From: Acidobacteriaceae bacterium | GTDB lineage: Bacteria; Acidobacteriota; Terriglobia; Terriglobales; Acidobacteriaceae | DNA: 64,000 nt | Assembly (NCBI GenBank): GCA_025350325.1 | Contig: JANXYB010000013.1 | Span: forward strand, 1 to 64,000 | Direction of reading: 5' to 3' | In this document: piece after piece, positions 1,290 through 4,073 of the stretch | Layout: every line of letters starts with the position of its first letter | Position numbering within the stretch: the stretch's first letter is position 1 | Position numbers and translations under genes: made by a program | The notes under the pieces: generated by a model | Database searches by the model: none | The model's input: the letters and a program-made list of their open reading frames with translations, nothing else | Told to the model about the DNA's origin: nothing

Positions 1290-1922
1290 TCACAGTGCGC
1301 CGGAACTCGGTTGGCGCATTAGAGACAGAAATTCCGACCGCGTCTCCTTCTGTCTGAAGCAGCCCACCATCGCCGATGTGACCGTCCATGCAGCCTGCTT
1401 CTCTATACCGCGCATCATCATGCAAAGATGCCGCGCTTCGATCACTACGCCTACGCCCTGCGGCGCGATCGCCTCTTGAATTGTGTCGGCAATCTGCCGC
1501 GTCAGCCGCTCCTGCACTTGCAAGCGGCGCGCAAAGACTTCGACCAGCCGTGCGATCTTGCTCAACCCGATAACCTTGCCATTGGGAACGTAGGCAACAT
1601 GCACCTTACCGAAAAACGGCAGCATGTGATGTTCGCACAGAGAGAACATCTCGATGTCCCTGACAATCACCATCTCGTCGTATTCCACATCAAACATCGC
1701 CTCGCGAAGAATCTTCGTCGGGTCTTCTTTGTATCCCTTGGTCAAAAAAGCCATCGACTTCTCGACGCGACCCGGCGTCGCCTGCAGACCGTCGCGATCG
1801 GGATCCTCACCCAGCCTGCGCAAAATTTCGCGATACATCTCTTCGGTGCTGAATGCGCCCAGACCCTCATCGATTTGCACAACTCCACGCGCCGGCTTGT
1901 CTACTCTCATCGGTTGCGCCAT
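1290..1922 (-). CDS. folE: GTP cyclohydrolase I (FolE, type IA)
   Basis: FolE converts GTP to 7,8-dihydroneopterin triphosphate, the first step to folate, tetrahydrobiopterin and queuosine-type deazapurines. The zinc ligands are visible: C96 and H99 in the motif [19 protein letters not shown], and C167 in [10 protein letters not shown], with H98 also present. The central signature ([19 protein letters not shown], about 116-133) is intact, so this is a zinc-dependent type IA enzyme of 210 residues. I chose ATG at 1922 because GGGAGG lies 9 nt upstream (1932-1937). An ATG in the same frame at 1943 lies before that site. Two pterin synthases precede it, the nearer ending 45 bp upstream, so its product probably feeds them. 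Confidence 0.96.
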
Positions 1923-1967
1923 GACTAACATCCTCCCGCCCAAGGGAATCGGGCGTCGTTCTTAAAC

Positions 1968-2381
1968 TCATTCACCTTCGTACTGAAAGAAATTGTTCTC
2001 AGTCTCTTCGATGCGTACATACGACAACTGATCAGCCGGAAGCGCATCCTTTAGCAATTGAAATACTTCCCTGCAAAGATTTTCCGTTGTCGGCACTCGC
2101 TTCACAAACAGCGGATCAAAATTCAAATTGGTGTGATCAAAGCGAGTCAACACCGTGTTCTCCACGGTTTTGTCGAGATCCACCATGTTCATCACCATGC
2201 CGGTTTCTGGATTCACCGCCCCGCCCACCAGCACTTCAACAACGTAGTTGTGCCCGTGTCCGTAAGCATTGTTGCACTTGCCATACGTGGTACGATTCAC
2301 TTCGTCAGAGAGAGCATCGGAATGCAAACGATGACTGGCGCTCAACATGTAGCGCCGCCCAAAGTAGGCCTTGTCACTCAT
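1968..2381 (-). CDS. 6-pyruvoyl-tetrahydropterin synthase family, paralogue 1
   Basis: This protein belongs to the QueD/PTPS family, which acts on dihydroneopterin triphosphate. The zinc histidines are H17 (SASHRL) and H42/H44 (GHGH). The catalytic cysteine C36 sits in CNNAYGHGHNY, a C-x5-HGH spacing. That spacing, the motif DPETG-like NPETGMVMN, FDHTNLN and ETENN resemble animal PTPS (tetrahydrobiopterin synthesis) more than QueD, which has C-x3-HGH. The length is 137 residues. Its ATG overlaps the stop of the upstream paralogue by four bases (ATGA), so the pair is translationally coupled. The likely product is 6-pyruvoyl-tetrahydropterin or 6-carboxy-tetrahydropterin; which one cannot be told from sequence alone. 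Confidence 0.9.
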   Translation of the reverse strand: MSDKAYFGRRYMLSASHRLHSDALSDEVNRTTYGKCNNAYGHGHNYVVEVLVGGAVNPETGMVMNMVDLDKTVENTVLTRFDHTNLNFDPLFVKRVPTTENLCREVFQLLKDALPADQLSYVRIEETENNFFQYEGE

Positions 2382-2809
2382 TGCCCACCCCGGTATTCAG
2401 CGAAAATCTCCGGCGTCTCATACACCCGCACACGGCTCAATTGGGCTACGGCCGTTCCATTCACGCCCTGTCCTATCACTCCTGCGAGCCGCGTCCATGC
2501 GGCAATTGCGATGTTCTCGGTGGTGGGTATGACCTTCGCAAATTCGGCAACCTCCATGTTCAAGTGACGATGGTCGTAAGCGTCCAGCACCTCCCGCTCC
2601 ATCACATCCTTGAGCCACTTGAGGTCCACCACAAATCCGGTTACCGGGTCGGGCTCGCCAGCCACGGTGACTTCGAGGGTATAGTTGTGGCCGTGCCCAT
2701 TGCGCCGAGCGCAGCGCCCAAACACCTGCTCGTTTTTTTCCACCGTCCACTCCTCGTTCCAGTAGAAGTGTGAAGCGGAAAATGTCGCCCGCCGTGTCAA
2801 CTCGATCAT
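2378..2809 (-). CDS. 6-pyruvoyl-tetrahydropterin synthase family, paralogue 2
   Basis: This is a second PTPS/QueD family member of 143 residues and the first gene of the leftward pterin operon. H14 (SASHFYW) and H39/H41 (GHGH) are the expected zinc ligands, and C33 in CARRNGHGHNY keeps the C-x5-HGH spacing. DPVTGFVVD, YDHRHLN and VYETPE match the family. It differs from its neighbour in the CARRN/CNNAY loop and in several inserts, so it is an old duplicate rather than a recent copy. GAGGGTAAGA directly before ATG at 2809 serves as ribosome binding site. The two may form different pterins or a hetero-oligomer (inference); no sepiapterin reductase is visible here. Confidence 0.9.
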   Translation of the reverse strand: MIELTRRATFSASHFYWNEEWTVEKNEQVFGRCARRNGHGHNYTLEVTVAGEPDPVTGFVVDLKWLKDVMEREVLDAYDHRHLNMEVAEFAKVIPTTENIAIAAWTRLAGVIGQGVNGTAVAQLSRVRVYETPEIFAEYRGGQ

Positions 2810-2891: not shown

Positions 2892-4073
2892 TCAGCCCGG
2901 ATACGTACGGCCCTTCCAGCTTACCTGCTTCACAATCCGGTGCTTGAACCAGCTTCGATAGAGCAGCACAATGAACAAAGGCAGCCCCAGCGGCGATAGC
3001 GCACAATCCACAAAGGGAAAATTCGACTTCGCCACCCGCCCATAAAACCTGAATAGGTTACGCGCCCAAAGCAGCGCCAACACCCATCCCGCACCCAGCC
3101 ACTGCAACGAATGCGGACCGAACCGCGCATCCCACATCCTCACTGCGAGCCACGGCAAACCTATTAGCAGCACAATATCCAGCGCCCGCCAAAACGCGGT
3201 TGCCAACGCATTGTGGAACAGCAAGGCGAGATTCTTCGTCCATCCCTCCATCATGGCTTCACTGGTCCTGTACATTCTGGTAGCCACCGCGTCCTCCGCG
3301 TACCTAAATCGCAATCCCACCTTGCGCCGCTTGGCGAGGAACGCGAGCTCCACATCTTCAAGCACATCGTTCGCGACCGATGCATGACCGCCCAGCCGCC
3401 GATAAGCCTCCCGCTCGACAAGCAAAAATTGCCCATTCGCGGCTGCGATGCGCTGATTTGGATCGGAGACCTTTACCGGCGGGTAAGCCAACGCTAGTTC
3501 TGAAAACACCAGCGGCATAAGCGCTCTCTGCGTCAACCCGGTTACGATCTGCCGCGGTGAATAGCTCAGCATTCCCACCTTGTGCCGCTCCGCCTCGTGC
3601 ATCGCACGCCGCAGGTTTCCCGGTTCGTGCACCGTGTCGGCGTCGGTGAAAAGCAGCCAGCGCCCCCGTGCCTTACGCGCTGCCGTCCAGATCGCATTGT
3701 TTTTCCCCGTCCAACCAGGTATTAATTTGTCTGCTTCGAGGACCGTCACCCCGTCGAATCCACGCGCAATCTCCGCCGTTCGGTCGCTCGATTGGTCATC
3801 AACCACGATCAACTCCCAATCCCGCTCGAGCTTGAATATTTCTTTAGACTGCGTAACCAGCGATCGCAGGCAATCTCCGAGGCAGTCCTGCTCGTCGCGT
3901 GCCGGCACAATCACCGTTAATTCCATGAGATTGTCGGGCTCAGGCTGGTCATAGACTGAACCCACCCTCAACGGTATGGATAGTGGGGCATTTGGCTCGT
4001 CCGATAACCCCAACACCGGCTTCCACATCTTCGCTCCCGGTGCCTCTGCTGACCCTTGGCTATCCTGTGCCAT
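2892..4073 (-). CDS. Family 2 glycosyltransferase, membrane-anchored
   Basis: This is an inverting GT-A glycosyltransferase of 393 residues. The nucleotide-sugar site begins at VIVPARDEQDCL (about residue 54) and continues with VVDDQSSD, while LFTDADTVHEP gives the metal-binding DxD-like motif. NDVLEDVELAFLAKR supplies the acidic ED region of the acceptor side. The last third holds three or four hydrophobic segments (about 285-375), placing the active domain on the cytoplasmic face of the inner membrane. The general plan recalls carotenoid or hopanoid glycosyltransferases (CrtQ/HpnB type), but the substrate is unknown. About 50 residues precede the catalytic domain, so an internal start is possible. 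It is divergent from the thioredoxin gene, with 50 bp between the chosen starts. Confidence 0.85.
   Translation of the reverse strand: MAQDSQGSAEAPGAKMWKPVLGLSDEPNAPLSIPLRVGSVYDQPEPDNLMELTVIVPARDEQDCLGDCLRSLVTQSKEIFKLERDWELIVVDDQSSDRTAEIARGFDGVTVLEADKLIPGWTGKNNAIWTAARKARGRWLLFTDADTVHEPGNLRRAMHEAERHKVGMLSYSPRQIVTGLTQRALMPLVFSELALAYPPVKVSDPNQRIAAANGQFLLVEREAYRRLGGHASVANDVLEDVELAFLAKRRKVGLRFRYAEDAVATRMYRTSEAMMEGWTKNLALLFHNALATAFWRALDIVLLIGLPWLAVRMWDARFGPHSLQWLGAGWVLALLWARNLFRFYGRVAKSNFPFVDCALSPLGLPLFIVLLYRSWFKHRIVKQVSWKGRTYPG

Follow-up and report, generated by a model that had tools for sequence, protein, structure and literature searches.

The two PTPS-II paralogues encoded beside folE in this acidobacterial genome, here called PTPS-A and PTPS-B (A and B), most probably form one heteromeric enzyme with a composite active site, and not two enzymes with two products. 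We put the probability of this reading at roughly 0.8. It rests on the comparison of orthologous sequences, in which A and B have lost complementary halves of the catalytic triad in many lineages, and on gene fusions that show the same split.

The window, that is, the whole stretch of DNA analysed, comprises 64,000 nucleotides at the start of one of the 160 contigs of a 4.49-Mb draft genome. In positions 1-60, where the contig begins, a TTATCTAGA-GACT-like word is repeated, which may mark an edge of the assembly. All genes of the locus lie on the minus strand. PTPS-A (2378-2809; an open reading frame of 143 amino acids, Pfam PTPS 2.5e-35) is followed by PTPS-B (1968-2381; 137 amino acids, Pfam PTPS 1.6e-30) and then by folE for GTP cyclohydrolase I (1290-1943; 217 amino acids with a TTG start as listed, Pfam GTP_cyclohydroI 9.3e-77, and above the cut-off of NCBIfam TIGR00063). 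The reading frames bear out the first-pass annotation of this DNA, which had described two PTPS genes overlapping by 4 bp, both ahead of folE. Upstream of PTPS-A by 82 bp is a family-2 glycosyltransferase gene (2892-4073) that is HpnB-like below the cut-off, and the downstream neighbour of folE is truB (381-1259; above the NCBIfam TruB cut-off), whose function is probably unrelated to the PTPS pair.

Both proteins carry the C-x5-HGH spacing that had been claimed for them, read in the sequence as C33-ARRNG-HGH in A and C36-NNAYG-HGH in B. The SASH, Asp-His, and TTEN motifs and the C-terminal Glu are present in both, so that each window protein has a complete set of three zinc histidines, Cys, Asp-His, and C-terminal Glu. 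In PTPS-A, the retained Cys33 is encoded at 2711-2713 and the proposed Asp-His donor by D79 (2573-2575) and H80 (2570-2572). In PTPS-B, C36 (2274-2276) marks the proposed working zinc/Cys pocket, and D82 (2136-2138) and H83 (2133-2135) are likewise retained.

PMC5041015 gives the family signatures as CxxxxxHGH for PTPS-II, CxxxHGH for PTPS-I, ExxHGH for PTPS-III, and CExxHGH for hybrids. Two members of the PTPS-II pairs have C-x3-HGH instead, namely the B protein of genome G009 (L051 8826-9335, minus strand; two residues short) and the A protein of G172. The C-x5 spacing alone is therefore not diagnostic.

The assignment to PTPS-II and not QueD, proposed from the motif, was upheld by profile scores, phmmer, fold, and trees. 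A and B score 64.1 and 63.8 bits against the QueD profile, below its cut-off of 89.25. Among solved structures, phmmer ranked the human and rat PTPS as the top relatives (human PTPS: 2.8e-34 for B and 1.9e-30 for A), and structures with C-x3-HGH were much weaker, at best 1.3e-11 for B and 6.2e-8 for A. AlphaFold2 single-chain models of the window pair reached mean pLDDT values of 90.9 and 90.7, and a Foldseek search with these models again placed rat and human PTPS at the top (B to 1gtq, 4.4e-18; A to 3i2b, 3.2e-16; TMq 0.87-0.90).

In a tree of 110 rows, based on few columns, the A proteins occupy one side of a branch, and so do the B proteins; A and B are sisters (SH-aLRT 82), animal PTPS stands next to them (SH-aLRT 78), and both QueD and a third PTPS of these genomes lie apart from them. 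A phylum-wide tree of 84 rows, again with few columns, recovers A as one group (98/94) and B as one weakly supported group (89/47). It does not settle how these two groups and animal PTPS branch from one another, although the three share a fork (83/84); E. coli QueD, on a long branch, falls on the ingroup side yet outside this fork. Taken as predictions from sequence and modelled fold, these data agree that A and B are PTPS-II proteins of the animal type. The opposite picture drawn in the first-pass annotation, with both proteins inside QueD, queuosine genes present, and no other pterin enzyme, does not describe this genome, as neither A nor B clusters with QueD and the genome gave no QueC match. 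A plasmid search with B gave 13 records, the best with an E-value of 1e-8; six were annotated queD and seven had no annotation.

We then considered the other pterin-related genes of the source genome. The third PTPS found there is of the PTPS-I/III type (CENPHGH) and scores above the QueD profile cut-off. Because FolB was not found in the source genome and exceeded its cut-off in only 5 of 79 genomes, this third protein probably serves folate synthesis, which would then run through its PTPS-III activity. QueC, not found in the source genome, had a match in 75 of the 79 genomes searched, some of them weak, and queuosine synthesis is perhaps incomplete in the source species.

The gene pair recurs widely among relatives. 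A precedes B in all 19 loci first compared; both were found in 80 of 80 loci of a genome-contig scan, where the B gene of one locus (L121) is broken, and in 94 of 94 non-duplicate loci of the first set, 92 of which also have folE. An arrangement that recurs in this way is not due to chance. The top named matches to A are Acidobacteria, with one betaproteobacterial sequence (L141) among the 80 matches listed. With an E-value of 2e-45 or below required of the best match, 55 of 79 relatives have B. It occurs in 45 of the 47 same-genus genomes, in none of 14 from another family of the order (f2), and in 10 of 18 others of the class. The two same-genus genomes without B are 69 and 70 percent complete. 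Across the phylum, a B-profile match at E<=1e-20 occurs in 39 of 159 genomes.

The surroundings of the operon vary. The truB gene lies downstream of folE in 46 loci. A glycosyltransferase gene is found upstream of PTPS-A in 73 of the 83 loci with room for it, within 150 bp in 60 and with a 4-base overlap in nine, hinting at a glycosylated pterin (pterin glycoside) or a lipid-linked product; a pteridine glycosyltransferase is the subject of PMC5683033. None of the seven wide loci from the order of genome G064 has a glycosyltransferase match, so this gene does not belong to the operon core; G066 does have a match. Downstream of folE, 16 loci carry a short-chain reductase (SDR) gene at a median distance of 44 bp (for example, L044 6234-7004, minus strand, and L112 9334-10179, plus strand); 87 loci extend for at least 1 kb in that direction. 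By profile these SDRs are generic, the best 25 NCBIfam matches of each of two proteins all being below cut-off, and at E<=1e-30 they had no match in the source genome; this comparison identified neither a sepiapterin reductase nor any other reductase for the next step there. The SDRs are candidates for the step after PTPS.

The main evidence for a composite active site comes from residue counts on alignments with rat PTPS, whose numbering (Cys42, Asp88, His89, and Glu133) is used below. The first set comprised 94 pairs, and the second came from the order of G064 and was fetched with the B profile; the recount, minus four duplicates, gave 170 pairs, which exclude the pairs from family f1 met in the scan of 159 genomes. 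Loci L075, L138, L139, L145, L128, and L166 were dropped as duplicates, as were L233, L234, and L235, from genomes already included, and L188, whose A core equals that of L185 with a different B. L230, where one protein only was found, was dropped too. In the second set, A and B were told apart by profile score at L178 and L215. L121 and L229, with gaps at the B Asp/His positions, were left out of the 168 scored pairs, and L121 and L107 were left out of a tree of 92 rows.

Asp88 and His89 are each present in 170 of 170 A proteins, which also all keep Glu133 and the zinc histidines. Cys42 of A, in contrast, is kept in 90 of 170 and replaced in 80, by Ala (30), Glu (27), Asn (10), Asp (7), Gly (4), or Ser (2); one of the fetch patterns of the first set included this Cys, so that its losses may be undercounted there. 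The B proteins show the reverse. Their Cys42 is present in 170 of 170, and Asp88 is found in 134 and His89 in 122, with two gaps; Asp and/or His is missing from 62 of the 168 scored pairs. The cultured soil acidobacterium Terriglobus roseus (L096), for example, has Ala at position 89 of its B. The zinc histidines of B are likewise all in place, except for one gap at the first. Among the scored pairs, neither protein is reduced in 63, only the B Asp/His in 26, only the A Cys in 43, and both in 36. A site that combines Cys from B with Asp-His from A is thus complete in 168 of 168 pairs, and the opposite combination is broken in 105 (43 + 26 + 36).

On the trees, the B Asp/His requires at least 29 changes (168 rows) or 14 (92 rows), the A Cys at least two, and the A Asp-His and the B Cys none, these being parsimony minima on weakly resolved trees. 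The loss of the A Cys may accordingly go back to only two events. Positions C42, K41, R24, and T134 are close to fixed in B; in A this applies to D88, H89, R90, and W114. B is the more variable protein overall (mean column entropy 1.66 versus 1.27 for A), and its fixed Cys therefore does not reflect general constraint.

As controls, we fetched all loci of the 23 genomes outside family f1 among the 39 with a B-profile match. Where such a genome has a single, unduplicated PTPS-II, Cys, Asp, and His are all kept (12 of 12), and the same holds for the third PTPS of the CExxHGH type (31 of 31 loci). In three genomes, a single open frame next to folE encodes both PTPS domains. Each of these fusions retains Asp-His in its first domain, where Arg, His, or Lys has replaced the Cys, and retains the Cys in its second domain, which has lost Asp and/or His. 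Two of the first domains, those from family f25, fall with A; the third fusion, from f18, was not placed by the tree and may be a separate event. Families f45 (two genomes, with the genes on different contigs) and f64 (one genome) show the same split, and their Asp-His protein lacks one zinc His and, in f45, Glu133 as well. In f28, both proteins are intact in four of four pairs. Genome G220 is an exception (L244 3171-5274, plus strand): in addition to an intact PTPS-II and a gene resembling a glycosyltransferase, it has a second PTPS that lacks Cys, Asp, and His alike.

Known PTPS is a homo-hexamer whose catalytic triad spans subunits, and the human form underlies a disease. Nar 1994 is said to have assigned Cys42 and Glu133 to one subunit and His89 to another. 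The phrase "intersubunit catalytic triad motif" appears in the title of Burgisser 1995, and PMC7546909 describes two trimers arranged head to head, with each site between three adjacent monomers. In the 36 pairs that have lost both the A Cys and the B Asp/His, no homomer with a full triad could form. Since the triad is intersubunit, only a mixed oligomer, with Cys from B and Asp-His from A, would be complete in these doubly reduced pairs. For the window pair, in which both subunits are still complete, heteromery would follow from its orthologues.

We propose that FolE supplies dihydroneopterin triphosphate as the substrate and that an oligomer containing both A and B, in the simplest case an A3 ring placed head to head on a B3 ring, would convert it to 6-pyruvoyl-tetrahydropterin. 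The working pocket would be that of B, with its three zinc histidines, Cys, and C-terminal Glu, completed by Asp-His reaching across the interface from A. The mirror pocket, made of the A zinc/Cys site and the B Asp-His, would be redundant and would have decayed repeatedly. A reductase, perhaps the SDR beside folE in some relatives, could then yield a tetrahydrobiopterin-type cofactor, whose users in the source species would include at least phenylalanine hydroxylase.

Some observations sit less easily with this heteromer. The window pair, 63 of 168 pairs, and the f28 pairs consist of two complete proteins, and homomers could work there. Moreover, the zinc histidines and Glu133 of A are kept in all 170 pairs, which is more than a dead pocket should need, although f45 and f64 show that zinc-site retention in the Asp-His protein is not needed everywhere. 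A tentative extension, which we regard as unlikely, would make A3B3 an obligate hetero-hexamer and give the A pocket, relieved of PTPS chemistry but still equipped with zinc and the Glu that anchors the pterin, a different task within this pathway. It might, for instance, hold the 6-pyruvoyl product, convert it, or sense the final pterin. We would then be dealing with a two-function hetero-enzyme and not with an enzyme that has three idle sites.

The first-pass annotation had left a choice between two pterin products and a hetero-complex. The hetero-complex is strongly favoured by the complementary loss and the fusions; two products found no support, and the residue counts over the 170 pairs led us to give them up as the principal interpretation. 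If two separate homomeric enzymes drew on the same FolE product, one of them forming 6-pyruvoyl-tetrahydropterin and the other a different pterin, the intact pairs and the persistence of the A zinc ligands and Glu133 even where the Cys is gone would fit, and altered motifs do alter chemistry in this family, as PMC5041015 reports for PTPS-III. We nevertheless consider this improbable. The losses are varied and strictly complementary, never removing the same half from both proteins in 170 pairs, the fusions repeat the split, and the six residues that replace the A Cys do not amount to one new catalyst.

Even less probable is a division into one PTPS and a non-catalytic partner or regulator with a decaying pocket and an unshared triad. 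The 80 Cys-less A proteins and the damaged zinc site in f45 and f64 would suit such a partner. B, however, as the only constant holder of the Cys, should then keep its Asp-His, which it has lost in 62 of 168 pairs, in 36 of them beside a Cys-less A; nor would there be a reason for A to retain Asp-His in 170 of 170. A role of the pair in queuosine or folate synthesis (as QueD or PTPS-III), to which family membership and the missing FolB might point, can be virtually dismissed given the PTPS-II motif and tree grouping of A and B, their scores below the QueD cut-off next to a third PTPS that exceeds it and can take the folate role, and the f2 genomes, 14 of 14 of which lack both a FolB over the cut-off and B.

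A search for aromatic amino-acid hydroxylases, recommended in the first-pass annotation, did find a phenylalanine 4-monooxygenase in the source genome (NF008877, above cut-off). Its gene lies between those for 4-hydroxyphenylpyruvate dioxygenase and homogentisate dioxygenase in a Phe/Tyr catabolic set (L042 4494-9898; G000:C114) that also includes fumarylacetoacetase, and all members exceed an NCBIfam cut-off. With a pterin carbinolamine dehydratase match (PF01329, at C131) also present, at least one enzyme is likely to use the pterin cofactor. But the hydroxylase and the PTPS pair do not go together: of the 55 genomes with B, 23 have the hydroxylase, and so do 8 of the 24 that lack B. No link was found over these 79 genomes, and the hydroxylase thus does not account for the pair. 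PF00351 matches occur in 22 of 47 same-genus genomes and in 6 of 14 f2 genomes; the latter have no PTPS pair, so their hydroxylase pterin must come from elsewhere.

Together, these data suggest that soil Acidobacteria appear to make a tetrahydrobiopterin-type cofactor by a two-protein enzyme. They point, too, to a pterin pathway that is widespread in this major phylum of the soil. A bacterial lineage in which the triad is split over two paralogues, with the halves reduced many times and sometimes fused, amounts to a natural experiment in the passage from homomer to heteromer, and the split tells which PTPS residues act in trans. It also has a practical side, as PTPS motif rules would misread many A proteins, the diagnostic Cys being absent from 80 of 170.

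The literature open to our searches yielded no account of a PTPS that is heteromeric or fused, and none of the acidobacterial operon described here. The general course, described in PMC7480870, is that of duplicated homomers turned heteromers, in which paralogues divide roles after duplication, as A and B would have done; no PTPS case of this principle was found in the literature searched. With PTPS-I (QueD) and the PTPS-I/III hybrid, A and B have the superfamily and the zinc site in common, and differ from them in that those proteins have C-x3-HGH, form a separate tree group, and keep the whole triad (31 of 31). The closest known counterpart is animal PTPS (PTPS-II; rat 1gtq and 1b66, human 3i2b), which has the same fold, C-x5-HGH motif, zinc histidines, Cys, Asp-His, and Glu as A and B and the same place in the pathway, after GTP cyclohydrolase I. 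PTPS is described in PMC7546909 as built from six identical monomers, whereas the acidobacterial triad appears to be divided between two paralogues.
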